From Nitrosospira sp. (GTDB taxonomy: Bacteria > Pseudomonadota > Gammaproteobacteria > Burkholderiales > Nitrosomonadaceae): 64,000 bases of DNA. Below are positions 31,384 to 48,834 of this stretch, piece by piece (position 1 is the first letter of the stretch; the number at the start of each line of letters is the position of its first letter). Where the stretch lies: positions 1-64,000 of the forward strand of contig JACDGV010000001.1 in the NCBI GenBank assembly GCA_013821425.1, in the 5' to 3' direction. A program made the position numbers and the translations under genes. The notes under the pieces were generated by a model. It worked only from the letters and a program-made list of their open reading frames with translations, ran no database searches and was not told the origin of the DNA.

Positions 31384-32598
31384 ATGCGCATTCTTCACAT
31401 CCTTGATCACTCCATTCCCTTGCACAGCGGCTACACCTTCCGAACGCTGTCCATTCTCAAGGAGCAGCGAGTCCTGGGATGGCAGACATTTCACCTGACG
31501 AGCCCGAAACAGGAAAATTGCGACGTGCTGCAGGAGGATGTCGATGGGTGGCATTTTTATCGTACGCCGGCCGCGACCGGCATGATGTCGACATTGCCCG
31601 TGTTGAACCAGGCTGCCGTCATCGATCGCCTGGCCCACCGATTGGATGAGGTGGCGAGAGACGTCAAGCCGGATGTCCTGCACGCGCATTCCCCGGTCCT
31701 GAATGCCTTGCCCGCGTTGCGCGTGGGGCGTCGAATGGGGATCCCGGTTGTTTATGAGATCAGGGCATTCTGGGAAGACGCCGCAGTGGACCATGGGACA
31801 AGCAGCGAATGGGGATTGCGGTATCGTCTTACACGGGCGTTGGAAACTTATGCGCTGAAAAATGTAGACGCCATAACCACCATCTGCGAGGGATTGCGGA
31901 GCGACATTGTCGGGCGCGGCATCGCGCAGGAAAAGGTTACGGTTATCCCCAATGCCGTAAATATTGAAAATTTCAGCGTGAACGGCACGCCCGATTTTAA
32001 ACTTGCGAAAGATCTCGGCCTTGAGGGCAAGGTGGTTCTCGGTTTCATCGGCTCTTTTTATGCTTACGAAGGATTGAGGGTTTTGCTTGCGGCTCTACCG
32101 AAAATGCTGATTGGGAATCCGGGGATCCGCGTTCTATTAGTTGGCGGTGGACCGCAGGAGCAAGAGCTAAAAGCCCTCGCAGTCCAACTGGGGCTGGAGG
32201 ACAACGTACTCTTTATCGGGAGGGTGCCTCATGAACAGGTGCAGCGCTTTTACAACCTGATCGATATTCTGGTCTACCCGCGGCTCCGTATGCGGCTCAC
32301 TGACCTGGTCACGCCCCTCAAGCCTCTCGAAGCCATGGCCCAAGGGCGGCTTGTGGTGGCTTCCGACGTGGGCGGGCACAGGGAATTAATCCAGGACGGA
32401 AAAACAGGCGTCCTGTTCAAAGCCGGGGACCCCGTTGCCCTGGCCTCCAAAGTCCTTTGGCTGCTTTCCAATCCTGACCTGTGGCTGGCCCTGCGCGCCC
32501 AAGCCAGGAATTTTGTAGACACTGAACGCAACTGGCCGGTCAGCGTAGCGCGATACAAGGCAGTCTATGATGCGCTCCTGTCTAGAAACCCGCAGTGA
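31384..32598 (+). CDS. Exosortase-A-associated GT4 glycosyltransferase
   Basis: The opening MRILHILDHSIPLHSGYTFR is the signature of a GT4 subfamily found almost only in exosortase-A polysaccharide loci. The donor-binding half includes VTVIPNAVNIENFSV, VLGFIGSFYAYEGLRVLL, VLLVGGGPQEQELKAL and RLRMRLTDLVTPLKPLEAMA, where the conserved Glu contacts the nucleotide. At 404 aa the length is normal. The sugar is not predictable. It shares a GTGA overlap with the next glycosyltransferase, so the two are translationally coupled. Confidence 0.92.
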   Translation: MRILHILDHSIPLHSGYTFRTLSILKEQRVLGWQTFHLTSPKQENCDVLQEDVDGWHFYRTPAATGMMSTLPVLNQAAVIDRLAHRLDEVARDVKPDVLHAHSPVLNALPALRVGRRMGIPVVYEIRAFWEDAAVDHGTSSEWGLRYRLTRALETYALKNVDAITTICEGLRSDIVGRGIAQEKVTVIPNAVNIENFSVNGTPDFKLAKDLGLEGKVVLGFIGSFYAYEGLRVLLAALPKMLIGNPGIRVLLVGGGPQEQELKALAVQLGLEDNVLFIGRVPHEQVQRFYNLIDILVYPRLRMRLTDLVTPLKPLEAMAQGRLVVASDVGGHRELIQDGKTGVLFKAGDPVALASKVLWLLSNPDLWLALRAQARNFVDTERNWPVSVARYKAVYDALLSRNPQ

Positions 32599-33713
32599 AA
32601 ACATCTGGTTTGTGCATCGGGCTGGTGGGACCTTTGCCGCCTCCTTCCGGCGGAATGGCCAACCAGACGCTGCAACTGGCGCGATTACTGCGGGAGGAAG
32701 GCGTTATGGTGGAGCTGATTCAGGTGAATCGTCCCTATCGTCCCCATTGGAGCGGAAGACTCAGGGGGGTCAGGGCGGCTTTCCGGTTGCTTCCCTATCT
32801 TGCGCACCTCTGGCGTTCTACGCACAAGGTTCAATTATTTCACGTGATGGCAAACTCGGGCTGGTCATGGCATCTGTTCGCCGCCCCCGCTATCTGGATT
32901 GCCTGGCTGAGAGGAATACCAGTCATTGTCAACTACCGGGGTGGAGAGGCGCATGCTTTCTTTGAGAAAGCTTTTTTCTGGATGAAGCCTAGCCTGCGCC
33001 GGATAGACGCCATCATCGTTCCGTCGGGCTTTCTTGAAGCTGTATTTGAAAAGCACGGTTTCTCCACCAGCTTAGTACCCAATATCATCGATCTCAGCCG
33101 TTTTTCGCCCAAGTCCGGTGGGGAAGCCCCGTCGAGAACAAATTTCCCGCAAATAATTGTCACCCGCAATCTGGAAGCAATTTACGACAATGCTACCGCC
33201 TTGCGCGCCTTCGGTATTGTCAGGCATGCATTTCCCGCGGCCACTCTCATCGTTGCCGGCTCGGGGCCCGAGCGACAGACCCTGGAGGAACTTGCAGCCG
33301 GGCTCGGGATAGCGAACGCGGTTACTTTTACCGGTCGAGTGGACAACGAGCGGATGGCAGCGCTCTATCGTAGCGCCGATATCATGGTCAATCCCAGTCT
33401 GGCCGACAATATGCCCATCTCGGTATTGGAAGCATTGGCAAGCGGCATTCCGGTGGTAAGTACCGATGTGGGCGGAGTCCCGTACCTGGTCGAACACGAG
33501 AAAACGGCCTTGCTGGTGCCGGCACGAAATCCGGAAGCCATGGCCCACGCTATCCTGGTGTTGCTTAACAATCCGGACAAGGCCACGGAAATAAGGAAGG
33601 CAGGGGTCGAGTCCGTGCAGCGCTACACATGGTCCAACGTTCGCATGAGCCTGCTAAGCGTGTACGAGCAGGCACTGGCGAACGCGGACCGGTCCAGGGC
33701 TGGCGTAAAATGA
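32595..33713 (+). CDS. GT4 glycosyltransferase
   Basis: This 372-residue GT-B enzyme begins with a GTG that overlaps the stop of the preceding gene. The acceptor domain has LVGPLPPPSGGMANQTLQLA, and the donor domain has TLIVAGSGPERQTLEELA, VTFTGRVDNERMAALY and NPSLADNMPISVLEALASG, with the conserved Glu pair region of GT4. Its position among polysaccharide genes supports a role in assembling the lipid-linked repeat unit. Donor and acceptor are not predictable. The last codons overlap the start of the adenylate-forming enzyme gene (ATGA). Confidence 0.92.
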   Translation: MKTSGLCIGLVGPLPPPSGGMANQTLQLARLLREEGVMVELIQVNRPYRPHWSGRLRGVRAAFRLLPYLAHLWRSTHKVQLFHVMANSGWSWHLFAAPAIWIAWLRGIPVIVNYRGGEAHAFFEKAFFWMKPSLRRIDAIIVPSGFLEAVFEKHGFSTSLVPNIIDLSRFSPKSGGEAPSRTNFPQIIVTRNLEAIYDNATALRAFGIVRHAFPAATLIVAGSGPERQTLEELAAGLGIANAVTFTGRVDNERMAALYRSADIMVNPSLADNMPISVLEALASGIPVVSTDVGGVPYLVEHEKTALLVPARNPEAMAHAILVLLNNPDKATEIRKAGVESVQRYTWSNVRMSLLSVYEQALANADRSRAGVK

Positions 33714-35089
33714 ACCCCGGTGCGCCAAAAAACTGCGATGTGTATACCAGACTGGTGTCAGGCATTCTCTTCCCGCTTCACGAACGCATCAAAAAACACG
33801 CAAGCGTTTCGATCCGCAAGGAGATGGAAGTTTCGCAATGGTGGGACCAGCAGCAACTGGAACAATTTCAGCTTTGCAAACTGCAACGCCTCCTCGCCCG
33901 CGTCCAGGAACGGGTTCCCTATTACCGCAGACTCTTCGCGGAGACAGGTGTCAGGGCAGAAGATATCCGCTCCCTTGCCGATCTCGCTCGCTTGCCATTT
34001 CTCGATAAAGCGGCGATACGCGGGAACCTGGAAGCGCTGAAATCGGATAATGGCGAGAGCCTTGCCCGATTCAATACTGGCGGGTCGAGCGGGGAACCAC
34101 TGATCTTTTACATCAGCAAGGAGCGCATCAGCCATGATGTCGCAGCAAAGTGGCGCGCCACGCGCTGGTGGAACGTGGACATTGGCGACCAGGAGATCGT
34201 GGTATGGGGCTCACCCATCGAACTCGGAGCACAGGATAACCTGCGTGCTTTTCGTGATCGCATGCTCCGGACGCGGCTGCTCCCCGCCTTTGAAATGTCG
34301 GATAATAAGCTCGATAGGTTCCTGGAAGAGATAAGCGCGGTACGTCCAAAAATGCTCTTCGGCTATCCTTCCGCTCTGTCGCATATTGCGCGGCATGCAG
34401 AGGCAAGTGGACGGAACATGGATCGCCTGGGTATTCGGGTGGCCTTTGTCACCTCTGAGCGGCTATATGACGAGCAGCGCCGGCAGATCAGCAATACATT
34501 CGGGTGCCCCGTCGCAAACGGCTATGGTGGGCGGGACGCCGGATTCATCGCCCACGAATGCCCGCACGGGGGTATGCACATAACCGCCGAGGATATCATT
34601 GTCGAGATTGTAGATCAGCAAGGCGCGCCCCTGCCTGCGGGACGGGCTGGCGAAATCGTCGTGACCCACCTTGCGACTGGCGATTTCCCTTTCATCCGCT
34701 ATCGTACCGGCGACATCGGCGTACTGGAAAGCAACCCCTGCGCGTGCGGGCGCGGACTTCCCCTGCTCAAGGAAATCCAGGGCCGCAGTACCGATTTTGT
34801 AGTTGCGCGGAATGGTGCGGTCATGCACGGCCTGGCTCTGATTTATGTATTGCGGGACCTTCCGGGCATACGATCGTTCAAGATAGTGCAGGAGAGTCTG
34901 GACCTTACGCGGGTGCTCGTAGTTTCAGAGAATGGATTAAGTCCTGAGTTTGTCGGGAAAATAGAGTCGGGGTTCAAGGCCAGGCTCGGGCAGGAGGTAA
35001 AGATAGCGGTCAAGGAGGTGCCCGAGATCCCCGTGGAAAAATCAGGAAAGTTCCGCTATGTCGTGAGCAAGATTGCCGCACGCGCATGA
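33710..35089 (+). CDS. PaaK/CapK-like adenylate-forming enzyme
   Basis: This 459-residue member of the AMP-forming acyl-CoA synthetase group is of the phenylacetate-CoA ligase/CapK branch. Visible motifs are FNTGGSSGEPLIFYISKER (ATP-binding loop), ANGYGGRDAGFIAHECPHGG, FPFIRYRTGDIG with the ribose-contacting Asp, and a Cys-rich SNPCACGRGLPL typical of the PaaK branch. The ATG at 33710 overlaps the glycosyltransferase stop and gives a protein starting MNPGAPKNCDVY; a longer frame from 33629 would lie inside the upstream gene. CapK-like members accompany capsule genes and probably activate an acid for transfer. Candidate partners are the ACP at 24585 or the AsnB-like proteins next door, by inference only. 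Confidence 0.87.
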   Translation: MNPGAPKNCDVYTRLVSGILFPLHERIKKHASVSIRKEMEVSQWWDQQQLEQFQLCKLQRLLARVQERVPYYRRLFAETGVRAEDIRSLADLARLPFLDKAAIRGNLEALKSDNGESLARFNTGGSSGEPLIFYISKERISHDVAAKWRATRWWNVDIGDQEIVVWGSPIELGAQDNLRAFRDRMLRTRLLPAFEMSDNKLDRFLEEISAVRPKMLFGYPSALSHIARHAEASGRNMDRLGIRVAFVTSERLYDEQRRQISNTFGCPVANGYGGRDAGFIAHECPHGGMHITAEDIIVEIVDQQGAPLPAGRAGEIVVTHLATGDFPFIRYRTGDIGVLESNPCACGRGLPLLKEIQGRSTDFVVARNGAVMHGLALIYVLRDLPGIRSFKIVQESLDLTRVLVVSENGLSPEFVGKIESGFKARLGQEVKIAVKEVPEIPVEKSGKFRYVVSKIAARA

Positions 35090-35103: not shown

Positions 35104-36609
35104 CTAAAAATCCGGAGGCAGACCAGCGCGGTCATCAATTTGCCGCAGGTAGCGGCGGCTGACTGCGCCCGCTGCCCAGGCAAAGGCATAACGCCGCAGC
35201 CGGCTTGGCCGGTCAAGCGAGTTTTGTGGCGCGAGACGCCACAGCAAGGGAATTTTATGCAGAGCGGACTCGATCATGGCGAGTATTCCGCTGGCGAGTC
35301 GCTCATAGCCTTCGTTTGTTGGCGGCGGCAGTTTGCCCCGCTTTAGCCATTCGCTGCGGTTTTGGGTGAGCCAGGCACGGTACGTCTCCAGCGAAGACGG
35401 GCTCAGGAATTCGGTGAATGCCACAGCGCTGGCTCTTTTCACCATGCCAAAGGCCTCCCGCGGTACACCGGCCGACTCGACGATGCGCCGGGGAATGGGA
35501 CGGCTATAATCGCCCGGTATATCCCAGGGCAGCATTTCTTTCGAGTTGCTAAGGCGGTTGATGTCCCTGATTTGGCGTATTCCCCAAAACGTGATCGGGC
35601 AGTGGATAAAGCCTGCCCATAGCCGATACTCGGTCAGCGAAAGCCCGGACGAGTCTCCCCGCACCACATCTTCGCTCAGGTCTTTTGCATATTTTGCCCA
35701 AACCTTGTCACCATGATAACCGGTGAGCAATACGGAGCCCGCCAGATTTGCCCCGGCACTGGCAAGTGACACCGCCTCCGCTGTGCCGTCAGCAGCAATA
35801 AAAGAAAGTTCCGCATCATCGAGCTTTCGCCATGCTTCACGCGCGACGTGTATGGGCCGCAAACCGAGATGCGCAGCGACCCGGTCTCCATTCTCCATTT
35901 CCCCGAACCGGTCCTTGTCGATGCACAACGCTTCTTCGCATCCTGCCTTGCGGGCAAGGACAGAAATCGCAGGCGAGTCGTAGCCGGAGGAAGCGGTAGC
36001 GAGCAAGCGATAGCGCTGCCTTCTTGCGGGATCGGCGATGTTTTGCGCGAGAGCCGTGAGGTTGTCCTGGAGGAACCGTTCGTAGCGGGTAAAACTGCTG
36101 AAATCACGGCGAACAATCTCGTGGGTTCGCTCTGTAGCCTCGCGGCCGTCCCACGTAAGCAATCCAAACATCGTAATACGAATATCGCCCAGCGAGGTGG
36201 CCAGCGTCCGCTTGTAGGCCGATAGCCCGTGAATAATGGTGGTAAAGTCCTCATAATAACGAGGAAAGGTCGGATCAATCGCTGCCCCGGATACAGCCAG
36301 TAGGCATGACAGCGAATTCGAGACGAGCAGCCCCTCGGCCGTTCTCAGTGACAAGATACGATCGACTGTATTGCCGGGCGCGACAAAAGTTAAAACGTTA
36401 TCCCGGCAATGGCCGCCTGTGCCGGCCATCAGGTCGGTCTGATCAAAACCTCCGGTGCTGAATGTGCCGGGCCAAGCGGCTTCGCAGAACCACTCGTCGC
36501 GAGTCTCCACCTGGCGGCCATGCCAAACTGAAACTGCTTTTTCGTTAATGGAACAGCGGGCCACCCACGCAAGGGGTGCCCATTGCAGGCAATTATATTT
36601 GATTAGCAT
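35104..36609 (-). CDS. Asparagine-synthetase-like ATP pyrophosphatase, paralogue A
   Basis: This 501-residue protein has the AsnB-type PP-loop ATPase domain. The N-terminal 150 residues resemble a degenerate class-II glutaminase fold (EWFCEAAWPGTFSTGGFD, LLVSNSLSCLLAVSG) but lack a Cys at position 2. The PP-loop reads LATASSGYDSPAISVLA, with SSGYDS instead of the usual SGGLDS. LLTGYHGDKVWA replaces the SGxGGDE region, and GDYSRPIPRRIVESAGVPRE matches the C-terminal AsnB segment. Such domains adenylate a carboxylate and form an amide. It is clearly paralogous to the gene 15 bp upstream. It converges with the adenylate-forming enzyme gene at 33710. Confidence 0.83.
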   Translation of the reverse strand: MLIKYNCLQWAPLAWVARCSINEKAVSVWHGRQVETRDEWFCEAAWPGTFSTGGFDQTDLMAGTGGHCRDNVLTFVAPGNTVDRILSLRTAEGLLVSNSLSCLLAVSGAAIDPTFPRYYEDFTTIIHGLSAYKRTLATSLGDIRITMFGLLTWDGREATERTHEIVRRDFSSFTRYERFLQDNLTALAQNIADPARRQRYRLLATASSGYDSPAISVLARKAGCEEALCIDKDRFGEMENGDRVAAHLGLRPIHVAREAWRKLDDAELSFIAADGTAEAVSLASAGANLAGSVLLTGYHGDKVWAKYAKDLSEDVVRGDSSGLSLTEYRLWAGFIHCPITFWGIRQIRDINRLSNSKEMLPWDIPGDYSRPIPRRIVESAGVPREAFGMVKRASAVAFTEFLSPSSLETYRAWLTQNRSEWLKRGKLPPPTNEGYERLASGILAMIESALHKIPLLWRLAPQNSLDRPSRLRRYAFAWAAGAVSRRYLRQIDDRAGLPPDF

Positions 36610-36624
36610 GGATAGTACGGGCCA

Positions 36625-38169
36625 TTATTCTGTTGTCATATACCTGCGCTTCGCAACATCAATTGCCCAAGGGAAGAGGAAACGCCGAAGTGGCAGGACC
36701 CAGGGAGGCTCGGGCTGATTAGCCCAGTCAAGAGTTGCGAACCTCTGTAGGGGCCGACGCAATGGGTCCAGGGCCTTGATTGAGTAACCTTTGGCCGCCA
36801 CTGCGCCAACAGCATCTTGAGCAAATTTAAAGATTTTGAAGAATATGCGGTCTAGGACCCGGTTTGCCAGAATCGTCGCGAACGGGCTGGGACCCAAGCG
36901 TGAGCGGTTCCGCCGGAGCCATCCGAGGTAGTCTCTCATGGACTGAGGCGTTAGAAATTGATCCATACTATTAGGCCAACTCGAGGCCGCCTTTTTCTTC
37001 CTGCCGAAGAGCTCCCGTGGCACACCGGCGCTCTCCACAATCCGCCGGCAAATTGGTCGGCTGTAATCGCCGCCAACATCCCATTTGGTCATAGATTCAT
37101 GGTTTGATAGCCGGATGATGTCCAATGATTGGCGGGCTCCCCAGAACGGGATTGGGCAGTGAAGGAAGTTTGCCCAGAGCCGATACTCGGTAAGAGAAAG
37201 GCCAGATGGATCGCCACGCACAATCTGTTCCGAAGCTCCTTCGGCGTCCTGGCCCCACACGACATCACCATGAAACCCTGTCAAAAGAACTCGTCCGCTT
37301 AATATTGATGCGGCAGCAGTGTATTGGACTTCCTCGCCCAGGCAATCCGCGGCAATATGAGGCACCTCGGGATGCATACCGCGCTTCCACAAGTCAATAT
37401 CAACCGTGTAAAGCTTGATACCTAGGTAGCACGCGATTTCATTGCCCGAATCCGTTGTCGGACCGGACTCCCTGCCGAAGGTAAATCCCTCCACGTCGGG
37501 CTGAACAGTTTTTGCTAACGCGCTTACGGTGGTTGAATCATAGCCTGAAGAAACGGTTGTAAGGAGGTTGAACGGGTGCCGGCGATTCCCGTCTGCACCG
37601 TTTAGTTGGATGCGCCTTAGCGTTCCGGCAAGGAAATCATGGTAGTGTTCAAAACTGGAAAAATCTCGAGTCATCCGCGGCTTGTCGATCCGACTGAGAG
37701 CCTGCCCATTCCACAGGAGATTATGGTAGTAGGTCAGGACTACATTACCCCCTGAACTTGGAACCTCGGCCTGATATCGATCGATCCCTTTCACGACGCT
37801 GTGAAAAGCAGCATGCCAGTTATGGTCAAGCAGAAAATCCAGTCTGGCAACAGCCGCGAGACAGGCCAGAGAATTCGAGACGAATACAGTTCCTGCCACC
37901 TCCAATGAGATCAGGCGATCTACGGTATTTCCGGCCGAAACAAAACAAATGTTTTTGTCTCGCTTCCGCCCCCCGCTACCCGCCACGATATCGGTACGAT
38001 CAAATCCACCATCGCTGAATTCCCCATCCCATGCTGCTTCACAAAACCAGTCCCCCGCAACCTCAACATTCGCCCCATGAGTTACGACAACTGCCTGTGT
38101 GCGGAGCTCGCATCGTGCCAGCCATGCTAACGGGGGCCAGGTCGGATTCGAGACAAATGATAGATTCAT
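36625..38169 (-). CDS. Asparagine-synthetase-like ATP pyrophosphatase, paralogue B
   Basis: This 514-residue paralogue of the downstream gene has the same layout. The N-terminal degenerate glutaminase-like part has DWFCEAAWDGEFSDGGFDRT and SNSLACLAAV, the PP-loop LTTVSSGYDSTTVSALA, the HGD element LLTGFHGDVVWG, and the shared block SGLSLTEYRLWANFLHCPIP. No N-terminal Cys is present, so glutamine hydrolysis is unlikely. A longer start at 38208 exists. The ATG at 38169 is chosen because MNLSFVSNPTWPPLAWLARC then aligns end to end with the N-terminus of the paralogue. It lies 56 bp after the ATP-grasp gene in the same direction. The substrate is unknown; a carboxylate such as a uronic acid is a guess from context. 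Confidence 0.82.
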   Translation of the reverse strand: MNLSFVSNPTWPPLAWLARCELRTQAVVVTHGANVEVAGDWFCEAAWDGEFSDGGFDRTDIVAGSGGRKRDKNICFVSAGNTVDRLISLEVAGTVFVSNSLACLAAVARLDFLLDHNWHAAFHSVVKGIDRYQAEVPSSGGNVVLTYYHNLLWNGQALSRIDKPRMTRDFSSFEHYHDFLAGTLRRIQLNGADGNRRHPFNLLTTVSSGYDSTTVSALAKTVQPDVEGFTFGRESGPTTDSGNEIACYLGIKLYTVDIDLWKRGMHPEVPHIAADCLGEEVQYTAAASILSGRVLLTGFHGDVVWGQDAEGASEQIVRGDPSGLSLTEYRLWANFLHCPIPFWGARQSLDIIRLSNHESMTKWDVGGDYSRPICRRIVESAGVPRELFGRKKKAASSWPNSMDQFLTPQSMRDYLGWLRRNRSRLGPSPFATILANRVLDRIFFKIFKFAQDAVGAVAAKGYSIKALDPLRRPLQRFATLDWANQPEPPWVLPLRRFLFPWAIDVAKRRYMTTE

Positions 38170-38225
38170 GGAATGGGTCCCGTCATAAGAAAGCTGTTCA
38201 CCAAACATATGTAAGAAAAATCGCC

Positions 38226-39275
38226 TTAATCGCCAGCCCTGAGAATACCAAGGCGTGTAACAAAATCCGCCCAGATCGCATCTTCAGGTCGCATTTGGCC
38301 TGCAACCCAAACAAGCTGTTTAGAGACACTATTCAGTTCCCAGTGTCCTGGGCATGCCGCAATGGCCCATCCTTCATAGTAATAACTGATTTCCGCAATC
38401 ACGGGCTCGTCATTCCGGCGGAGCACGTCGACAGCCAGTGATTGAGTCTGGAGTACCCTTGCTGTTTCAAAAGCAAGCAGGATCGCATCTTCGGCGATTT
38501 GCGAAGGATCCCAATCGATCCTACCGCTACCGCTTGCACGGAAATCGTTGGGTCGATTATGTCGGCGGAAGGCGAAAGCCCGATTGCCAATTATGGTGAT
38601 CCGGATATCAAAATTATTCCCTGGTAAAAACTCTTGAAACAGTAAACTGCCTTTATGAAATTCATCATTATTTTTTTTGCAAGTAACTATACGAAATGCT
38701 TCCAGAAAACGGCCCGCCAGCCAGCGGAAAGGAAGGTTGGGAGGCGGCAGAGTATGCATTCCGGAGTCAAGAAGCTCTTTAACGCATCGCCGCGCGTCCC
38801 GCGGATTGCGCACCAGTTCCACATTCCGTGAGGTTATTCCGGAAGCAAGTTTCAGCACCAACGGATATGTAGCTGAAGATAAAAATTCTTCCGCAGGACG
38901 TCGCCACCAAAGTACCCAAGTTTTAGGAATCGGAATACGCGTTGCGCTCAACAAATAATACTGAGCTACCTTGTCGTCGAAATGCCAGATGGTATTAAGA
39001 TTGGGAAATGTTGGCATTTTACTTATGTGTGCAAGGGACGCAATAATCCGGCGTCCGGGTCTGCTTACGGGTATGGGTTGGCCAAACCACCACATGAGCG
39101 CACTGCAACCGTTAAGCTGTTCAAAGTAGTTTTCCGAACTCGAATTAATATCAACTTTCCGTGTCGCAATGCCCTGCTGGTAGGCCAGCTCATGCCAGCG
39201 CGCCGAGAAGGATTGGTAACGGCCGCTAGAGAGCTGTAAATTATCTTCATGAATTGCAATGGTTGGTTTGTTCAT
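38226..39275 (-). CDS. ATP-grasp-like ligase
   Basis: This 349-residue protein has the ATP-grasp outline. A pre-grasp part (KPTIAIHEDNLQLSS to FEQLNGCSALMWWFGQP) is followed by WHFDDKVAQYYLLSATRIPIP, typical of the linker before the ATP lid. Then come TYPLVLKLASGITSRNVELV (a Lys for ATP), FQEFLPGNNFDIRITIIGNRA with the Asp-Arg pair, and LAVDVLRRNDEPVIAEISYY, where an acidic residue for metal lies. ATP-grasp enzymes join a carboxylate to an amine or thiol through an acyl phosphate. The ATG at 39275 is preferred over 39374, since a GAGG site precedes it. It is 56-100 bp ahead of the AsnB-like pair on the same strand, suggesting joint action. Confidence 0.82.
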   Translation of the reverse strand: MNKPTIAIHEDNLQLSSGRYQSFSARWHELAYQQGIATRKVDINSSSENYFEQLNGCSALMWWFGQPIPVSRPGRRIIASLAHISKMPTFPNLNTIWHFDDKVAQYYLLSATRIPIPKTWVLWWRRPAEEFLSSATYPLVLKLASGITSRNVELVRNPRDARRCVKELLDSGMHTLPPPNLPFRWLAGRFLEAFRIVTCKKNNDEFHKGSLLFQEFLPGNNFDIRITIIGNRAFAFRRHNRPNDFRASGSGRIDWDPSQIAEDAILLAFETARVLQTQSLAVDVLRRNDEPVIAEISYYYEGWAIAACPGHWELNSVSKQLVWVAGQMRPEDAIWADFVTRLGILRAGD

Positions 39276-39523
39276 GTAAACCTCATTGTATCGATGCTCA
39301 AAAGCGGCAAAGCATCCATCCAGTTTTTGGATAAACCCATCTTCCCAGCTACAGGAACTCGTTGAGAGCAGCAATGCGCTGATTGACGACCGTACTCATG
39401 GATGCCATCCTCCGCAAACTCAGATACTCGTACTGACTGAGTCGATACTGCCTTTCCGCTTCACGCAACTGCTTCTGTTAATGTCCAGAAGCCCTTTTCC
39501 TTGCCGCCACCCAAAGGAACGCT

Positions 39524-40993
39524 TCACCCCGCTGCCGATTTCGCCCGCTTGAGTACTAGAATACTTCGTAGCATCTCGAGCACTTCATTTGTCCCTTTGC
39601 GATTTAACCCGAATGACGTGCCGCAGTAGGCCAGCGCGCCTACCGCAATAAGAACGCATAGGCGCAGCACCCCGCCCTGCCCCTCCATAAAAAAGTAGCG
39701 CGTTGCGGTTACGGCAATGTACATGAAGAAACCAGCGCTTAGCGCGGGCATCATCGCCTTTAGAAGCTGACGCAGGGTCAGGCCAAGCACGGGCAGGCTC
39801 CTCAGCATGGCTTGCGTAAACAGCAGGGGCGAGGCAATGAGCCACGTCAGGCTTATGCCAAGCAACCCCCACTTGACGCCGATAAGAAATGCGACAGGTA
39901 AAATCACTGCTGCGTAGATCGAGTTTATTAGCATGATATCGGACCGGCCCATTCCCTGAATGGCGGATGGCAAAAAATTGGCGATCATCCGCAGGGGCAT
40001 TATCAGGCCCAGTACCTGTAGCGGGATAACGGAAGGCATCCACTTGGGGCCAAGGATCACCTCGACGATTTCGGGAGCGATGCTGGACATGCCCCACATT
40101 AGTGGAAAGGCGAAGAAACTCAGGATCCGGGTGCCGAGCAGCACGTTCTCGCCCACCTTGGCGACATCGTACTGCATGCGTGAGAAGGTCGGAAACGCAA
40201 CCTGGTTGATGATGCCCAGCACCCGTTGATGGGGCATCGAGGCCAGATGCATGGCTACCGCGTAGAAACCGGTGGCTTCCTTGCCCAGCATTCTTCCACA
40301 GATGATCATATCGATCTGCGTATAAAACAGCCACAACAACTGCGAAGCCGTGACCTGGCCGCCGAAGCGCAGCAGTGCGCGCATCCCCCGCACGGAAAAT
40401 TCCGGCCACCGCAGGAAAGGCGAAATCCAGTTGAGCCCAATGGTTTTCCACGCCTGGCTGACTAGCGTTCCGGCAACCAGAGCCCAGACCCCCACCCCTG
40501 CAAAAGCCAGGGCCAGCGTGGTGACGCTGGCAGTAACGGTTGCCGACAGGTCCAGCAGCGAGCGTTTGCGGAATTCCATCCGGCGTTGCAACTGAGCGTT
40601 CGGGATGACAGCAAACGCAGCCAGTACGAATTGCAGGGTAAGAACGCGGATTACGTCAGTTACTCGCGTCTCACCATAAAAATCGGCGATGAACGGCGCG
40701 GCAAGCACCAGGACGCCGGCCAGCGCAAAGTGAATGACAAGCGTCGCGCCGAAAACTCGGGGGAGGAGCGATTCGTCGTCGTCCGCCTGCTGGATGACCG
40801 CGGCACCAAGACCGAACTCGGAGAACGCCGCGAAAAACATGACGAACACCGTGGACATCGCAAGGAGCCCATAATCCTCCGGCGTCAGAAGCCGGATCAC
40901 GACAAGGGTGATGGCCCAGGTGATCACCTGGCTTGCCAGCCTCGCGCTGGCGTTCCAGCGAAAGCCCGAGAAGGCTTGCTCGCGTAATGTCAT
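39524..40993 (-). CDS. Wzx/WzxC-type polysaccharide flippase (MOP superfamily)
   Basis: This 489-residue integral membrane protein has 12-14 hydrophobic segments and the family N-terminus: SGFRWNASARLASQVITWAI, then VVIRLLTPEDYGLLAMSTVF and GLGAAVIQQAD. GVWALVAGTLVSQAWKTIGL and the WMPSVIPLQVLGLIMPLRMI region are also typical of WzxC/RfbX-like flippases. It should translocate the undecaprenyl-linked repeat unit across the inner membrane. It is probably the first gene of the minus-strand run with the ATP-grasp and AsnB-like genes, though a 248-bp gap without genes separates it from them. Confidence 0.9.
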   Translation of the reverse strand: MTLREQAFSGFRWNASARLASQVITWAITLVVIRLLTPEDYGLLAMSTVFVMFFAAFSEFGLGAAVIQQADDDESLLPRVFGATLVIHFALAGVLVLAAPFIADFYGETRVTDVIRVLTLQFVLAAFAVIPNAQLQRRMEFRKRSLLDLSATVTASVTTLALAFAGVGVWALVAGTLVSQAWKTIGLNWISPFLRWPEFSVRGMRALLRFGGQVTASQLLWLFYTQIDMIICGRMLGKEATGFYAVAMHLASMPHQRVLGIINQVAFPTFSRMQYDVAKVGENVLLGTRILSFFAFPLMWGMSSIAPEIVEVILGPKWMPSVIPLQVLGLIMPLRMIANFLPSAIQGMGRSDIMLINSIYAAVILPVAFLIGVKWGLLGISLTWLIASPLLFTQAMLRSLPVLGLTLRQLLKAMMPALSAGFFMYIAVTATRYFFMEGQGGVLRLCVLIAVGALAYCGTSFGLNRKGTNEVLEMLRSILVLKRAKSAAG

Positions 40994-41543: not shown

Positions 41544-43307
41544 ATGTCAATTTTCGCGGGAGCTTTTGCGCTCCAGCCCAATCGAGCGATACCGGCAACT
41601 CTCATTGATGAGCTTCGTGCCGCGCTATCGCGCCATCCTGGAGACGTAGATGTCGGGTCCGAGTTCATCAACGACGGAATTTTCATTGCCAAGATAGACG
41701 TAGGTGCGCTGTGCGAGCCAGGGGAATATTCAGATGATGTGGTGACAGCCTATGTGGCCGGTGACCCCATCCTGCAGTCCGGCCCGGGTGCGTCGCCGGT
41801 ATCACGAGCTGATAGCCTACAGGTTTTGGCTCAGGATGTTGCGGCCGGGCAAGACGACGCGTTGCGCTCCTGCCGTGGAACTTATTGCGCAGTCATCTAC
41901 GAGCGATCTCCCCGCAGGCTGCATCTTGTGACAGACAAGCTCGGCGTCCGGCCGCTTTATATGTGGATATTGCCAGATTACATTATATTCGCTACGGCAT
42001 TGCGGATACTGGAGGCTGTGACCTTCTCCAGGAAGTCCATAAATCGTCAGGGTGTGGCTGAGATCGCCTGCTTCGGCTACCCACTGGCGGATCGCACGCC
42101 CTACAGCAACATATTCTCGCTCCATGCAGGGGAATGGGTTAGTAGCGGCAACGGGAATCTGCTACGGAGGCGGTACTGGCGTCTGGACAGGGCGCAGCCG
42201 CCTGCGGCTTCTGGCATGGCGCCGCCCCAGCGGCTTTATCGACTGTTTGTTGACTCCGTAAAGGTTCGGCTGCGCCGGCAGACGACAGTCGCCGCATTTT
42301 TAAGCGGAGGACTGGATTCGCGGGCGATTGTTTCAGCTCTTAAGAGCGCCGGGGCAGATATTTTCACGGCCAATTTTGCTCCGCCTGGCAGCCAGGACCA
42401 GGTGTTTGGCCAGCTTGCTGCAGATCGGTTGGGAACGCACCATACGTATTTACAGCGAAGTTCCCTTGGGGAGGGAGATCCGTACAGCAAGGCGACGGTA
42501 GGGCTCTGGCTAGGCTCCGCAGACTATCTTGCCTGTAATCCACAGCGCCCAAGGGTGGTCTGGTCGGGCGATGGTGGTAGCGCCGGATTGGGCCATATAT
42601 ACCTTAATTCTGACATCGTTGCCGCGGCGCGGAGGGGAGACCTGTGGAGAGCAGCGAGGAAATTCCTGGCTTATAACCATTGGGGGCTCCAAGCAAAGCT
42701 CCTCAAGCCCCGAATCGCCGCCGAGCTTACCAGCATGGTAGACGACGGGATTCGTGCGGAGCTCGAATCGATCAAACCCGCTGACCCTGGCCGTATCTTA
42801 TACCTGTTCCTCATGCTGAACGACCAGCGGCGGCATATGTTTAATCATTTTGAGAACCTGGATTTGGCACGTATCGAATTCGAGATGCCATTCTTTGACG
42901 CCGATTTCGTGACAAGTATCATGCAGGAACCCATCGATTCCTTTCTTCGCCATAATTTTTATCTCGAATGGCTCAAATGCTTTCCAGCGGGCGTGTTGGA
43001 AACCCCATGGCAGGCGTATCCCAACCATATACCCTGCCCGCTTCCTCAACCAGAGGGATTGAGTTACCAATGGGGGGATCAGTATTCCGCCAACGACGTG
43101 AAGAGCCGCCGCCGGATAATGATCGAGACTGCCCGAACCCTGCTGCGCGAACCGCACTTTTCGCATGAGTATCTGGATTACAGGCGGATGAGACTTTCGA
43201 TGCTGCTCATGCGGTGGGGAAAAGCAGACCGTTCCTACCTCATGCATGTGCCGACCGTGCTATACCGTTACTGGTCCCGCACCGCCACTTCTGTCATCAG
43301 CAGCTGA
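41544..43307 (+). CDS. Asparagine-synthetase-like protein without glutaminase Cys
   Basis: This 587-residue AsnB-family protein is closer to standard AsnB than the tandem pair at 35104-38169. Its N-terminal domain has the class-II amidotransferase shape (RGTYCAVIYERSPRRLHLV, TDKLGVRPLYMW, FATALRILEAV) but starts MSIFAG, with Ser where the catalytic Cys would be. The synthetase domain has the canonical PP-loop AAFLSGGLDSRAIVSAL (near residue 250) and VWSGDGGSAGLGH in place of SGxGGDE. It may use free ammonia or another amine, or close an amide within one substrate as beta-lactam synthetases do. It heads the run of plus-strand genes that continues to the deacetylase. Confidence 0.85.
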   Translation: MSIFAGAFALQPNRAIPATLIDELRAALSRHPGDVDVGSEFINDGIFIAKIDVGALCEPGEYSDDVVTAYVAGDPILQSGPGASPVSRADSLQVLAQDVAAGQDDALRSCRGTYCAVIYERSPRRLHLVTDKLGVRPLYMWILPDYIIFATALRILEAVTFSRKSINRQGVAEIACFGYPLADRTPYSNIFSLHAGEWVSSGNGNLLRRRYWRLDRAQPPAASGMAPPQRLYRLFVDSVKVRLRRQTTVAAFLSGGLDSRAIVSALKSAGADIFTANFAPPGSQDQVFGQLAADRLGTHHTYLQRSSLGEGDPYSKATVGLWLGSADYLACNPQRPRVVWSGDGGSAGLGHIYLNSDIVAAARRGDLWRAARKFLAYNHWGLQAKLLKPRIAAELTSMVDDGIRAELESIKPADPGRILYLFLMLNDQRRHMFNHFENLDLARIEFEMPFFDADFVTSIMQEPIDSFLRHNFYLEWLKCFPAGVLETPWQAYPNHIPCPLPQPEGLSYQWGDQYSANDVKSRRRIMIETARTLLREPHFSHEYLDYRRMRLSMLLMRWGKADRSYLMHVPTVLYRYWSRTATSVISS

Positions 43308-43423
43308 CCCCATGGGTTATACTCGAATATTCATGATGCAGCCTCCGCCGCAACTCTCCATGAGCGCATTCCACTCCAAACTGCTATTGATGCAACCCAG
43401 CACATCATGCTGAGGGCCTGCCG

Positions 43424-44158
43424 ATGATTGAACAAGAGTTAAGAAATCTCGGCCTGAGTGACCGCGAATGTTTTCGGTTAAGCAGCACTTTTGAACTCAT
43501 TCCCCCGGATGCAAGAACTGCGCTGGAAATCGGTTTTTACGACCTGCGCGTAACCCGATTGTTGCGCAAGCGTCTTTCCGTGGTGAGTGTTGATCTTCCG
43601 AGGCCGGTAAGCGCGGAAGATAAATCGGGGCTGGTCTTTGCGGATATTCAGGCATTACCGTTTCCGTCGAAGACATTCGATGTCGTCTTTTGTACGGAAG
43701 TTCTTGAGCATCTTCCAGAAGGGGTATTAGAGCACGGAGTGCGCGAACTTGTACGTGTGGCTCGCAAGAGCTTGATCGTGTCGGTGCCGTTCCAGCAGCG
43801 CGTCTGGAATGAAATGTTCAAATGCGAGGATTGCGGTTTTACCGGTCACTCGATGGGCCATTTGCATTACTTTACCGAGGAAGACATTACCCGCCTGTTT
43901 CCTCAATACAACGTCGTCGAGCGGAGATTTATCGGCACGAGCAAAGGTTACGCGCCAGACTGGCTTTACGGTATTGCCCGCAAATATGGCAACGTGTGGG
44001 GTAATTACCAGTTCGGCAATTGTCCGCAATGCGGAAGAACCGACCGTGCGGTTCCACCAAACTGGTTTGGCCGAATTATCGAGAGAGTAATCTGGCGTGC
44101 GCACAAGCACGCGCCAACCCAGCCTTCATGGCTGCTAATGTCACTGGCTGCGGCCTGA
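43424..44158 (+). CDS. SAM-dependent methyltransferase with Cys-pair insertion
   Basis: This 244-residue class I methyltransferase has motif I as ALEIGFYDLRVTRLL, the acidic SVDLPRP, and FDVVFCTEVLEHLPEG as the core strand 4 region. Between the core and the C-terminus are the Cys pairs FKCEDCGFTGHS and FGNCPQCGRTDR, about 75 residues apart, which could bind a zinc ion. The target is unknown; its context suggests a sugar or lipid intermediate of the polysaccharide. It follows the AsnB-like gene after 116 bp and precedes the Gfo/Idh gene by 91 bp. Confidence 0.83.
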   Translation: MIEQELRNLGLSDRECFRLSSTFELIPPDARTALEIGFYDLRVTRLLRKRLSVVSVDLPRPVSAEDKSGLVFADIQALPFPSKTFDVVFCTEVLEHLPEGVLEHGVRELVRVARKSLIVSVPFQQRVWNEMFKCEDCGFTGHSMGHLHYFTEEDITRLFPQYNVVERRFIGTSKGYAPDWLYGIARKYGNVWGNYQFGNCPQCGRTDRAVPPNWFGRIIERVIWRAHKHAPTQPSWLLMSLAAA

Positions 44159-44249
44159 ACATCACTATGACAACGCAACAGCATACGCCCGGCAGGGCGA
44201 TGGCAGCAGATAATCCAGGTTTAGCTGAAGGAGCGGGGGAACCGCAAGC

Positions 44250-45290
44250 ATGACCGGTTCGTTTCGTCTTGCTATTATCGGGTCGGGCCTTATTACCCAG
44301 GCGTCCCATCTCCCCGCGGCCCTTGCGCTCCCGAAGGTTCAGGTCACGGCGATTATAGACCCAGCGCCGGCGCGGGCAGCGCAAGTTGCGGCGAGCTATG
44401 GCATTAGCCCGTTGATTTTTGGCAGTATCGACGATATGCAGAACGCGAAGGCATGTCAGATTGATGGAGCTGTCATTGCAACGCCCAACCACACTCACAA
44501 GGACCTTGCCATTCGCTGCCTGGAGGCCGGCATCTCCGTATTGATCGAAAAACCCCTCGCGAACAGCGTGGCTGACGGCCTGGCTATTGCAGAGGCGGCG
44601 GAACAAGCAGGACGGGTTGCCGCCGTTGGCTATTGGAGGCATTTTTCCGGGATAACGCCGCTATTGAAAGAGGTGGTTGATCAACAGTACTTCGGTACCG
44701 TAAAGCGATTTGTTCACCAGTTCGGCACGGAAGGCGGGTGGGCACCCTTGTCCGCATACAATCTCGATAGGCGTACAGCGGGCGGCGGCGTCCTGGTGGT
44801 TTCGGGATCTCATTTTATAGACCAACTCCTGTATTTGTGGGGGTATCCAGACACCGTTGAGTTTCGGGACGATTCCGCAGGTGGTCCGGAAGGGCACTGC
44901 GAAGCAGTATTTAACTTTGGCGGGGAATCGGGGCCGATCACCGGTATCGCCCGCTACTCAAAGACAACGCGGATTCCGGGAGGGTTAGTGCTGGAGACGG
45001 ATCGGGGTATTCTAACCGTAACGGAAAGCGGAGAAGGCAGCATAGAGTTCCGCGCGGCAGCCAGCCCGGGTATTGTGCAAACGATTAGCCGTGGCACGCG
45101 GACCGGAGCAGCGACCGATGAGTTTGTTCTCCAGTTACAGGATTTTGTGGACGCTTGCCTGGAAAGAAGACCTCCCAGGGTGACTGCCCGCCAGGGCATC
45201 GAATCTCTCCGGCTCATCGAGCTGCTCTACAGCCAGCGGAAGCCGATGGCGCAGGACTGGTATTCGGGCAGAGGGCACAAGGATGAGTAA
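44250..45290 (+). CDS. Gfo/Idh/MocA family oxidoreductase
   Basis: This 346-residue NAD(P)-dependent sugar oxidoreductase has a Rossmann N-terminus, AIIGSGLITQASHLPAAL, the loop GAVIATPNHTHKDLA, the catalytic Lys in ISVLIEKPLANSV, and a C-terminal beta-sheet domain with SGSHFIDQLLYLWGYP. Members oxidise or reduce a sugar or sugar nucleotide; the WlbA/WbpB branch acts on UDP-GlcNAcA, which TviB would provide here, but this is only a possibility. An ATG with an upstream GGAGCGGGGG is used. It overlaps the next gene (epimerase) by eight bases, suggesting consecutive steps in one pathway. Confidence 0.9.
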   Translation: MTGSFRLAIIGSGLITQASHLPAALALPKVQVTAIIDPAPARAAQVAASYGISPLIFGSIDDMQNAKACQIDGAVIATPNHTHKDLAIRCLEAGISVLIEKPLANSVADGLAIAEAAEQAGRVAAVGYWRHFSGITPLLKEVVDQQYFGTVKRFVHQFGTEGGWAPLSAYNLDRRTAGGGVLVVSGSHFIDQLLYLWGYPDTVEFRDDSAGGPEGHCEAVFNFGGESGPITGIARYSKTTRIPGGLVLETDRGILTVTESGEGSIEFRAAASPGIVQTISRGTRTGAATDEFVLQLQDFVDACLERRPPRVTARQGIESLRLIELLYSQRKPMAQDWYSGRGHKDE

Positions 45291-46473
45291 GCGCGTGGCC
45301 GTTATCGGCGCATCCGGATTCGTCGGAGCCACGCTGGTTGAGCGCGCTTTACAGAGTGGACTCGATGTTGTCCCTATTATTCATTCAAGCGGAAATGCGT
45401 GGCGCTTGACGCGCCACGGAATTCCTTTGCGTGCCGCCTCTCTTCTGGATAAACAACAGCTGACTAGCGCCCTGAAAGGTTGCACCCACGTTGTCAACTG
45501 CTCGCGCGGGGGAGATGATGTGATGTATGAAGGTTTGGCAAACCTTCTTCAGGTAAGCAGCTCTCTCGGGATCAGCGGACTGGTTCATCTGAGCAGCGTA
45601 GCGGTTTACGGCGATCCGCCATTGCCGGATAGTAATGTGGAGGGCGGAACCACGGCAGCGCAGCCCGGCACCTATGGCTGGATCAAGTTGCGACAGGATC
45701 AGATGGTTGAAAAAGCGGCCGCGCAAGGATTGCCTTGCGCCATTCTTTGCCCGCCAAATATTGGCGGGCCTTATTCGGGATACCTCACCTCGTTGATCGA
45801 AGCGTTACGTTCACGCTCGCTGTTGCTGATGGACGATGGAAATGCAGTGATGAACATTGTAGATGTGCATAATCTTTGCCATGCTATCGAGCTTTCACTC
45901 GATCGCTGTTCCAAAGAGGCGCGTCGAATGTTTGTCACCGACGACGAAGAAATTACGTGGAAGCAGGTAATCGATGGGCTTATTCCAGTCTGCGGCACTG
46001 CTATTGACGTTCCCGTCGTTTCAATGGAAGCCCTCTCTAGATTCGGTAGCCAGTCCGTGAATGTTCCCCGAAGTTCGATAACGCGCAGCCTGAAGCACCT
46101 GGTTTCGGATGAAGTCCGTGCCGCGATCCGCAAAGATCCTCTGCTTGCCAAAGCCGAAATTATGATGCGCCGATCGGTAACATTTCTCGGAACTGGCGTT
46201 GAACAACGACTGAAATTATCTGTGGGAGGTCCACCTCCCCTGCCCAAAATAGCGGAAAAAATCAAACCTAATATCCGTCTCTCCGCTCAGCAGTTGCGCG
46301 GCGTGCGCCACTCATGCGAACTGGCAAAACGCGAAATCGGCTATGTGCCCCAATACTCGTTTCATCAGAGTATGAAAGCGTTTCGTGCCTGGTACAGCGC
46401 TCATACCGGGGTAAATGATCCCTCATGGGAGCTATCGCGTTATCTGTGGTTGAAGCCGGAGTTTCTCGTATGA
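45283..46473 (+). CDS. NAD-dependent epimerase/dehydratase family protein
   Basis: This 396-residue extended SDR protein has the Rossmann motif AVIGASGFVGATLVERAL, the Ser in HLSSVAVYGDPP and Tyr/Lys in YGWIKLRQDQMVEKA. It is about 60 residues longer than ordinary epimerases, with a C-terminal part (from about residue 300) containing RQLKLSV-like and CELAKREIGYVPQYSFHQSM segments; the latter is the usual end of such enzymes. It overlaps the Gfo/Idh gene by eight bases and is likely to act on the same sugar nucleotide. The exact reaction is unknown. Confidence 0.88.
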   Translation: MSKRVAVIGASGFVGATLVERALQSGLDVVPIIHSSGNAWRLTRHGIPLRAASLLDKQQLTSALKGCTHVVNCSRGGDDVMYEGLANLLQVSSSLGISGLVHLSSVAVYGDPPLPDSNVEGGTTAAQPGTYGWIKLRQDQMVEKAAAQGLPCAILCPPNIGGPYSGYLTSLIEALRSRSLLLMDDGNAVMNIVDVHNLCHAIELSLDRCSKEARRMFVTDDEEITWKQVIDGLIPVCGTAIDVPVVSMEALSRFGSQSVNVPRSSITRSLKHLVSDEVRAAIRKDPLLAKAEIMMRRSVTFLGTGVEQRLKLSVGGPPPLPKIAEKIKPNIRLSAQQLRGVRHSCELAKREIGYVPQYSFHQSMKAFRAWYSAHTGVNDPSWELSRYLWLKPEFLV

Positions 46474-46640: not shown

Positions 46641-47978
46641 ATGAGAGATATCCTTGTCACCCTGATTGTTGCCGGTTCACTGCCGTTCATTTTGAAAAGG
46701 CCATACATTGGCGTATTGATGTGGGTGTGGATCAGCGTAATGAACCTCCATACCCAGGGGTGGGGGTTTGCCCGGACACTTCCGTTTGCCGCAGTTATTG
46801 CGGGAGTGACAATGCTAAGCCTTCTTTTTACCAAGGATTCCAAGAATTTGCCGTTGACCCCTATCACGATGGTTTTGGCCGCTTTCGTGATCTGGATGAA
46901 TGTATCCACCGTCTTCGCCTTTTATCCGGAGGACATATACGACCAGTGGAACAAGGTAATGAAGATCATGCTCATGACTTTTGTTACCTTCATGCTCATA
47001 AAGACAAAGCAGCACATTCAACTTCTCATCTGGGTTACAGTCATTTCGCTGGGTTTTTACGGTGTCAAGGGCGGTCTCTTCACGGTAAAAGGCGGAGGAG
47101 AGAATATGGTCTGGGGGCCTGTGGGCACGTTTATTGAAGGAAACAACGAGCTTGCCCTCGCGCTCATCATGACGATTCCCCTGATGCATTATCTTCAGAT
47201 CATATCCCGAAAAATATGGGTGCGCCACGCTTTAAGCGTTGCCATGCTGCTCTGCGCGGCTTCCGCCTTCGGCAGCCACTCACGGGGTGCATTGGTGGCA
47301 ATCGTTTGCATGGGCGCCTTTCTATGGCTCAAAAGCCGGCAAAGGTTCCGCCTTGGGCTGCTAATGATTCTAACTGTCCCTGTGCTGGTCTTGTCCATGC
47401 CCGAGAAATGGGCGGAGAGAATGGATACCATCAATAGCTATGAGGAGGATGGTTCCGTTCGGGGGCGCTTCAATGCCTGGGGCATGGCGTATAACCTGGC
47501 GCTCGACCGCCCGCTGACGGGTGGCGGTTTTGAGGTTGCCACGCCCGATCTTTTCCTCCGCTATGCTCCCGATATTACGGATGTGCCGCGCGCCGCCCAC
47601 AGCATTTATTTCCAGGCGCTGGGTGAGCATGGCTTTGTCGGTCTCGGCCTGTACTTGTTGCTTGGCCTGGTGACCTGGCAGACAGGGACATGGATTACCC
47701 GCAGGACCAAACATCTCGAGGACTACAAGTGGGCATACAATCTCGCAACAATGGTCCAGGTAAGCCTGATCGGTTTTGCAACCGGGGGCGCTTTCCTTAG
47801 CCTGCTCTACTTCGACGTTCCGTACTATCTGATGGCGGCCATGGTAGCCACGCGAGTTCTCGTGGAAAGGGAACTGAAGGAAAAAAAGCTATCCGACGTC
47901 CCTGGAAAAGGGCGGGGAACGTCACAACAGTTCGGGCAGTTTAGCCCGGCACAACCTATTCGCCGCGACTCGGGCTAG
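46641..47978 (+). CDS. Exosortase-A-associated O-glycosylation ligase (Wzy/WaaL-like)
   Basis: This 445-residue membrane protein opens MRDILVTLIVAGSLPFILKR with IGVLMWVWISVMNLHTQGWG close behind, a signature of the putative O-glycosylation ligase family specific to exosortase-A loci. About ten membrane segments are visible. The large periplasmic loop contains SYEEDGSVRGRFNAWGMAYNLALDRPLTGGGF and AHSIYFQALGEHGFVGL, corresponding to the Wzy_C/O-antigen ligase core. It likely polymerises or attaches the lipid-linked glycan to an acceptor in the periplasm. It lies within the long plus-strand run, 167 bp after the epimerase. Confidence 0.93.
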   Translation: MRDILVTLIVAGSLPFILKRPYIGVLMWVWISVMNLHTQGWGFARTLPFAAVIAGVTMLSLLFTKDSKNLPLTPITMVLAAFVIWMNVSTVFAFYPEDIYDQWNKVMKIMLMTFVTFMLIKTKQHIQLLIWVTVISLGFYGVKGGLFTVKGGGENMVWGPVGTFIEGNNELALALIMTIPLMHYLQIISRKIWVRHALSVAMLLCAASAFGSHSRGALVAIVCMGAFLWLKSRQRFRLGLLMILTVPVLVLSMPEKWAERMDTINSYEEDGSVRGRFNAWGMAYNLALDRPLTGGGFEVATPDLFLRYAPDITDVPRAAHSIYFQALGEHGFVGLGLYLLLGLVTWQTGTWITRRTKHLEDYKWAYNLATMVQVSLIGFATGGAFLSLLYFDVPYYLMAAMVATRVLVERELKEKKLSDVPGKGRGTSQQFGQFSPAQPIRRDSG

Positions 47979-48156
47979 CGCAACCCACTCTTCTATATGA
48001 TTCTGACTGAGGTTCCTACCGTCGCTGTCGCGTTGTTTTTTGGCCGTGCAGCGAAAGAACGCTGGCCATGAGGGTTTGGGACATGCTCAGGGTGAGCAAA
48101 GGCTTTCCGCCGGCCGAGTTTACGATACTGCATGCACATAATGAAAGGATTCGCCA

Positions 48157-48822: not shown

Positions 48823-48834
48823 TCAGGGGACGCC

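Follow-up and report, generated by a model that had tools for sequence, protein, structure and literature searches.

Adjacent AsnB-fold proteins without the glutaminase cysteine in the variable cassette of a Nitrosospira exosortase-A locus

A 64,000-nucleotide stretch of a Nitrosospira sp. genome (contig JACDGV010000001.1, positions 1 to 64,000; hereafter the window) contains two adjacent genes on the minus strand, A and B, that encode diverged paralogous proteins with the predicted fold of asparagine synthetase B (AsnB) and beta-lactam synthetase. Both proteins have lost the N-terminal nucleophile of AsnB. The PP-loop and a late lysine are conserved throughout their family, both genes are under purifying selection, and they are located in the variable cassette of a conserved exosortase-A exopolysaccharide locus (Table 1).

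Sequence and predicted structure of A and B

Both genes are intact, with a gap of 15 bases between the start of A and the stop of B. The frame of B is open to 38208, giving an open reading frame (ORF) of 527 residues (36625-38208); we chose the ATG at 38169 as its start because the alignment with the orthologue from Nitrosospira sp. Nl5 begins at MNLSF. The proteins share 42% identity over 506 columns (E 2e-129). A first-pass annotation, made from the letters of the window, had described two adjacent AsnB-fold genes of 501 and 514 residues that retain a glutaminase-like N-terminal part, and the ORFs and predicted folds agree with it. The shared blocks that it listed (SGLSLTEYRLWA, GDYSRP and RRIVESAGVPRE) were all found in A and in B. 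The translations likewise bear out its remark that Cys is absent from position 2; neither protein starts with Met-Cys.

In A, the SSGYDS PP-loop occupies positions 207-212, the second motif GYHGDKVW positions 297-304, and YSRPIPRRIVE positions 368-378, followed by Lys391. The second motif of B is GFHGDVVW, so HGD-x-x-W is common to both. The annotation regarded both motifs as altered in comparison with AsnB. They are indeed present in both copies, but SSGYDS is only a mild change, as both Ser residues, the second Gly and the Asp of SGGxDS are kept. The real departure is HGD-x-x-W: the acidic residue that follows GGD in GxGGDE is gone from A and B.

The AlphaFold models have a mean predicted local distance difference test (pLDDT) of 93.8 and a predicted template modelling score (pTM) of 0.93 for A, and 90.2 and 0.91 for B. 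Compared with AsnB, human ASNS, beta-lactam synthetase, carbapenam synthetase and TsnB9, the two models give Z scores of 16.6-19.1, and the next structural group, single-domain PP-loop enzymes, gives 11.0 or less. The matches cover both domains, except that of TsnB9 with B (residues 27-397 of the 527-residue ORF); the alignment ranges give the first and the last aligned residue only. Residue 1 of AsnB aligns to Leu13 of A and to Leu27 of the 527-residue ORF of B. Thus A has an extension of 12 residues and B, counted from the ATG at 38169, of 13. Since the alignment of A starts with AsnB residue 1 at Leu13, an internal residue behind the extension occupies the position of the AsnB nucleophile.

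AsnB itself (PDB 1ct9, PF00733) resembles A in fold (Z 19.1 over 366 residues) and in the PP-loop region, and matches B in both domains (Z 18.1). A and B differ from it in the lack of the N-terminal Cys, the extension of 12 to 13 residues, SxGYDS in place of SGGxDS, and the loss of the acidic residue of GxGGDE. Beta-lactam synthetase (PDB 1jgt, 1m1z) gives the best Foldseek E-values for A and shares with it the PP-loop and the two-domain fold (Z 18.3-18.9 over 344-366 residues). We take it, as well as carbapenam synthetase CarA, to be devoid of the glutaminase Cys, as A and B are. However, identity to beta-lactam synthetase is 10-14%, its dyad Tyr is not conserved in the A/B family, and it belongs to an antibiotic cluster, whereas A and B belong to a polysaccharide cassette. 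CarA (PDB 1q15) has the fold of A (Z 17.3), but it is 11-16% identical, depending on the chain and program, and no carbapenam context was seen around A and B. The hydroxyamidotransferase TsnB9 (PDB 7ylz; Z 18.7 with A and 17.9 with residues 27-397 of B) is 8-14% identical and acts in a different pathway. The XrtA/PEP-CTERM amidotransferase (TIGR03108), presumably an enzyme of the glutaminase type, is AsnB-like and found in exosortase-A loci, as A and B are, but neither protein matched its model at E 1.

A preprint (PMC13060819) presents the nitrile synthetase PesC and the peptide amidases TsrC, ScdTA and AsnO as AsnB-like enzymes with ATP-dependent activation of a carboxylate, such as we propose below for A and B. 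According to the same preprint, a Glu-Tyr dyad is kept in all four, and the nitrogen source of PesC is glutamine. If the dyad corresponds to positions 302 and 307 of A, as motif spacing would suggest, the family has Glu in 3/76 and Tyr in 2/76 proteins.

B reaches 22.3 bits against PF00733 (gathering cut-off 21), A has no Pfam match at E 1 and is not recognised by NCBIfam, and none of six other family members scanned matches PF00733 at E 0.1. With TIGR01536 (glutamine-hydrolysing asparagine synthase) B scores 14.3 bits, below the curated cut-off of 267.1, and A has no match. Used as single queries against PDB sequences, A and B gave no match. A profile of 14 sequences (A1) gave three weak matches, the best of them CarA (E 0.67), and a wider profile (A2) five weak ones, the best of them QueC (E 0.023) and none of them CarA or beta-lactam synthetase. 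No PADLOC defence model was matched at E 0.01 by A, B, the neighbouring ATP-grasp and third AsnB-like proteins, or one Mur ligase/peptidyl-tRNA hydrolase fusion (see below). No description of the family was found among the matches listed from titles and abstract openings of the open-licence literature. The family, proposed as undescribed in the first-pass annotation, thus receives no name from Pfam, NCBIfam or PDB sequence searches; we regard it as a new, widespread subfamily within a known superfamily.

Spread, conservation and history of the family

A whole-protein search found relatives in 8/125 genomes of the host family and 4/369 of the class, the host being counted in both. The nearest named relative is Nitrosospira sp. 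Nl5 (73% identity to A, 71-72% to B). When one genome per species was scanned with sequence patterns, 77 loci were obtained across many phyla and groups, including Pseudomonadota, Gemmatimonadetes, Nitrospira, Planctomycetota, Acidobacteriota, mycobacteria, Firmicutes and Bacteroidia. The locus counts below refer to 78 loci, the window among them; residue counts refer to 76 aligned proteins in the numbering of A. None of 93 pattern matches in viral contigs was a relative, and plasmids gave no pattern match.

Nineteen positions are near-invariant (73-76/76 each): W15, G31, W46, G128, Y176, N190, R196, S207, G209, Y210, D211, G297, E327, Y368, P371, R374, R375, F387 and K391. Seven of these (S207, G209, D211, P371, R374, R375 and F387) are found in all 76 proteins, as is S-x-G-[Y/F]-D; Y210 (Phe in one protein) and Y368 are found in 75 and E327 in 74. 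K391 is present in 75/76, the sole exception being a gap in a protein cut at a contig end. The last Ser of the PP-loop, present in A and B as part of S-x-G-x-D-S, is kept in 70/76, and the position that follows the first Ser is variable (S in 34, T in 14, R in 12, K in 7, A in 4 and N in 3). Met-Cys before W15 occurs in 0/73. One of the two scan patterns was the PP-loop, which was therefore partly selected for; S-x-G-Y-D is nevertheless present in 36 of 37 proteins outside that pattern (STGFDS in the other one), and S-x-G-Y-D-S in 12/12 proteins of the whole-protein search, in which no patterns were used. Random loss of active-site residues, which would have argued against a functional family, is not seen for S-x-G-[Y/F]-D, R374/R375 or K391. 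Judged from conservation and position in the sequence, E327, Y368 and K391 are candidates for a catalytic role.

The HGD-x-x-W motif is looser (H 35, G 72, D 57, W 71 of 76), and the acidic position of the AsnB GxGGDE is most often K (24; T 8, V 7, E 3). Position 298, two residues ahead of the GD of this motif, is Y in 21, F in 19, H in 6 and S in 6 proteins, a variation that would be expected with differing acceptor substrates. A Tyr of the beta-lactam-synthetase type was considered as a family feature and dropped because this position is variable.

The ratio of nonsynonymous to synonymous substitution rates (dN/dS) in comparison with Nl5 is 0.126 for A and 0.126 for B, and 0.075-0.124 for six neighbour genes. 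Nearly saturated synonymous sites (dS 1.1-2.2) make the values rough, but each of them lies far under 1. Together with the intact frames and conserved core residues, they agree with the earlier judgement that the altered motifs reflect function and not decay.

The annotation had also suggested a tandem duplication that split the function or produced a heterodimer. The phylogeny (FastTree, midpoint rooting, topology alone used) speaks against this: A joins single-copy Nitrosomonas proteins, and B, like its orthologue in Nl5, diverges earlier. Three Nitrosomonas genomes (G016, G030 and G049; 89-100% complete) have one family gene each, of the A type. From the tree, A and B are not recent duplicates. 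An obligate A/B heterodimer is unlikely because single-copy genomes exist; a locus with several specificities is a better fit than a single enzyme divided in two. Two full-length copies, adjoining or with one gene between, occur in 7/78 loci (the window, L025, L026, L042, L045, L080 and L097). In the tree, the two copies are sisters in L042, L080 and L097, but not in L026, L045 or the window with L025. In L028 (574-2092), three fragments of a family gene lie directly ahead of an intact copy and represent a decayed duplicate or an assembly error.

The cassette, its neighbours and Mur-ligase-type proteins

Table 1. Genes A and B and other genes of the exosortase-A locus in the window
Feature	Position	Strand	Remarks
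A, AsnB/beta-lactam-synthetase-fold protein without glutaminase Cys	35104..36609	-	501 residues
B, diverged paralogue of A	36625..38169	-	514 residues, ATG at 38169; SSGYDS, GFHGDVVW
RimK-like ATP-grasp	38226..39275	-	upstream of B; ORF open to 39374, ATG at 39275 inferred from the Nl5 orthologue start MNKP
Wzx-type flippase	39524..40993	-	upstream of the ATP-grasp gene
Third AsnB-like protein (GATase_7 + Asn_synthase)	41544..43307	+	divergent from the A/B run; SGGLDS; MSIFAG start, no Cys2
Methyltransferase	43424..44158	+	variable cassette
Gfo/Idh/MocA oxidoreductase	44250..45290	+	variable cassette
NAD-dependent epimerase/dehydratase	45283..46473	+	variable cassette
TIGR04063 XrtA glycosyltransferase, second GT4, PaaK-like adenylate-forming protein	31384..35089	+	conserved left flank
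Exosortase-A O-glycosylation ligase (TIGR03097)	46641..47978	+	conserved right flank

The proposal that A and B belong to a polysaccharide locus is supported, as they lie between the conserved flanks of an exosortase-A locus. Both flanks (on the right, genes 46641 to 51531) match the window at 67-83% in four of five other loci of the genus that were read, the left-flank genes being 74-83% identical. Between the flanks of those four loci nothing matches the window but the flippase, at 25-36%. In the fifth locus (L127) the stretch reached the right flank only. The exosortase-A O-ligase was matched in 23/23 genomes of the genus and the A/B family in 2/23. The eight genes of the window cassette (35104-46473) include no match to a glycosyltransferase family. 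Among seven cassette genes scanned in three of the other loci read, there were one WbsX and two GT2 glycosyltransferase genes, one methyltransferase and one MBOAT acyltransferase gene; the remaining two had no match. The PaaK-like adenylate-forming protein (33629-35089) is a part of the conserved left flank in 4/5 other Nitrosospira loci read.

The third AsnB-like protein also lacks Cys2, a point that the annotation had left unlinked to A and B. Among AsnB-like proteins encoded near family genes (companions), Met-Cys-Gly is found within the first 60 residues in 2/31; of the other 29, one is cut at a locus edge and some have uncertain starts. Loss of the glutaminase thus looks common in companions (41544-43307 in the window and 20 loci). 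In a study of a Sphingomonas exopolysaccharide locus (PMC11340318), a table of genes that affect colony morphology includes an exosortase-associated amidotransferase and gives it the number 12 (apparently insertions); this entry bears on the third AsnB-like protein and not on A and B. Elsewhere in the host genome are two strong PF00733 matches (349.1 and 271.5 bits), which are candidates for ordinary asparagine synthesis, and three weaker ones.

Close homologues of the third AsnB-like protein (>675 bits) occur in 9/125 Nitrosomonadaceae genomes; a tenth genome, G101, has a homologue of 367 bits. Five of the nine (G000, G016, G030, G049 and G109) have a close member of the A/B family (>370 bits), and the other four (G015, G018, G021 and G032) have Mur-ligase-type proteins; no genome has both and none has neither. 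The chance of such an exact complement is 1/126, with phylogeny ignored. Amide bond formation is the established activity of Mur ligases and of ATP-grasps of these classes, and the presence of either the family or the Mur-ligase type, never both, argues for a shared role as amide ligases. At E 1e-80, Mur-ligase-type proteins were found in 5/125 genomes (ten matches, seven of them full-length including a peptidyl-tRNA hydrolase domain), and Pfam confirmed the Mur ligase/peptidyl-tRNA hydrolase fusion in six. Beside the Mur genes lies an ATP-grasp of the sugar-transfer class, joined by the RimK-like class in 2/3 stretches. The close RimK-like ATP-grasp (>500 bits; 6/125 genomes) occurs equally with and without the family (three genomes each) and is therefore not tied to it. 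Distant family members of G042, G073 and G116 have no companion AsnB-like gene. PMC2922099 names an AsnB-related PP-loop protein, an ATP-grasp and Mur ligases in predicted peptide-synthesis operons.

The fusion is present in one to three copies per stretch in three Nitrosomonadaceae loci (L116:11605-13476, L118:9803-13615 and L120:489-6344), where it adjoins sugar-transfer ATP-grasp genes; judged by title, none of the publications listed in a literature search was about such a fusion beside an ATP-grasp.

The tie to exosortase A, which the first-pass annotation had suggested surveying, holds for this subgroup but not for the whole family: a homologue of the exosortase-A O-ligase was found in only 8/78 loci. 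In 124 close co-directional neighbours compared with Pfam, the most frequent matches were Asn_synthase and GATase_7 (14 each), flippases (10) and glycosyltransferases (up to 9 per family). Any of five polysaccharide gene types is present in 41/78 loci within the stretch examined, these being raw counts.

Proposed function and alternatives

We consider it somewhat probable that A and B are catalytically active members of the AsnB/beta-lactam-synthetase superfamily, amide synthetases that need no glutamine and tailor the variable part of the exopolysaccharide. A or B would use ATP to adenylate a carboxylate, possibly that of a uronic acid or an amino acid, and the amine of a directly bound second substrate, not glutamine-derived ammonia, would attack the adenylate. 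Amino acids or amines could in this way be attached to sugars of the repeat unit ahead of Wzx export, perhaps alongside the RimK-like ATP-grasp, with A and B as separate enzymes for different substrates. On this reading, the family, a widespread unnamed branch of the asparagine synthetase superfamily, gave up glutamine and kept the ATP chemistry, and one of its subgroups is linked to a surface polymer that is switched in a serotype-like manner among ammonia-oxidising bacteria. Members of the family, if they do form amides on sugars, are candidates for catalysing the coupling of amines or amino acids with carbohydrates. The either-or relation with the Mur-ligase fusions offers a direct functional test, a comparison of the polymers of the named strains.

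Several observations weigh against this proposal. None of the five polysaccharide gene types is present in 37/78 loci, some of which are long contigs with unrelated genes (a sulfatase, a Mrp-type antiporter) and others short contigs; given this number, a glycan role may fail for the family as a whole. D301 is kept in only 57/76 proteins and the position of the AsnB Glu is variable, so the sequences allow no general base to be named. No other of the eight genes has as high a dN/dS as A and B, but the margin is only 0.002. The displacement sample is small (nine related genomes), and in G018 and G021 the Mur genes are on other contigs than the companion; they share its locus in G015 and G032, where alone a swap within one locus is seen.

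The best of the alternatives, an unlikely one in our estimate, is that A and B are ammonia-dependent amidotransferases that adenylate a uronic acid and amidate it with free NH3 to a primary carboxamide, the glutaminase having been dropped because ammonia is abundant. The AsnB superfamily is able to use ammonia, and the hosts include ammonia oxidisers and other bacteria of the nitrogen cycle (Nitrosospira, Nitrosomonas, Nitrospira, Brocadia). However, the family is also present in Marinobacter, mycobacteria, gut or rumen Firmicutes and Muribaculaceae, and the acidic residue of GxGGDE is E in only 3/76 proteins. Moreover, four related genomes have proteins of the Mur-ligase type in place of the family, and such proteins join amino acids.

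A bolder version of amide synthesis, which we hold to be distinctly unlikely, is that the cassette makes a glycan-peptide hybrid with a partly amide-linked repeat unit. Steps of chain building would then fall to a series of amide synthetases, namely A, B, the ATP-grasp and the third AsnB-like protein. No glycosyltransferase is recognised in the window cassette, in contrast to 2/3 other cassettes of the genus sampled, which fits such a hybrid, but the conserved left flank supplies at least two.

Formation of intramolecular amides (lactams), the reaction of beta-lactam and carbapenam synthetases, on a sugar amino acid or a small molecule is improbable. Beta-lactam synthetase and CarA are among the closest structures by Foldseek E-value, CarA is the best of the three profile-A1 matches, albeit with E 0.67, and the Tyr of the CarA GYGSD, presumably Tyr345 of its Tyr-Glu dyad, aligns to Y298 of A in a weak alignment. 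On the other hand, position 298 is Phe in B and Tyr in only 21/76 proteins, profile A2 has neither enzyme among its five matches, AsnB matches equally well by Z, and the window genes scanned, a part of all window genes, are glycan genes.

We give little credence to the idea that A and B have no catalytic activity and serve the neighbouring AsnB-like protein as scaffolds or regulators: the glutaminase Cys and the AsnB Glu are lost, but the PP-loop and the Lys are near-invariant across phyla, and in 51/78 loci, some of them short contigs, the stretch examined contains no companion of the AsnB-like kind. Modification of a ribosomal peptide, by a cyclase of the lasso type or a peptide amidase, deserves slightly less. 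Lasso cyclases are AsnB-like proteins without the Cys, and the third AsnB-like protein scores 65.6 bits with the lasso cyclase model, far under its cut-off of 525. But no RRE partner of the PqqD type (PF05402) was matched in the host genome at E 0.01, in a search whose control was positive in 3/14 genomes, and A and B lie between exosortase-A glycan genes. Decaying pseudo-enzymes are scarcely credible, since nothing in A and B themselves points to decay (the fragments of an extra copy belong to L028), and dN/dS, intact frames and conserved residues contradict it.

Family genes outside the ammonia oxidisers have other neighbours. In two mycobacteria (L060:9929-14364 and L093), an AMP-binding enzyme and a decarboxylase of the ornithine/arginine/diaminopimelate type are encoded near the family gene, as assigned by cluster with Pfam run on one representative each; the decarboxylase could supply an amine. 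Near the family genes of gut or rumen Firmicutes, and spread across three loci (L074:4233-5207, L086:9045-10001 and L089:1824-3023), are genes for a PylC-like ATP-grasp, a pyridoxal-phosphate enzyme of the PALP family, a DegT aminotransferase and sugar transferases.

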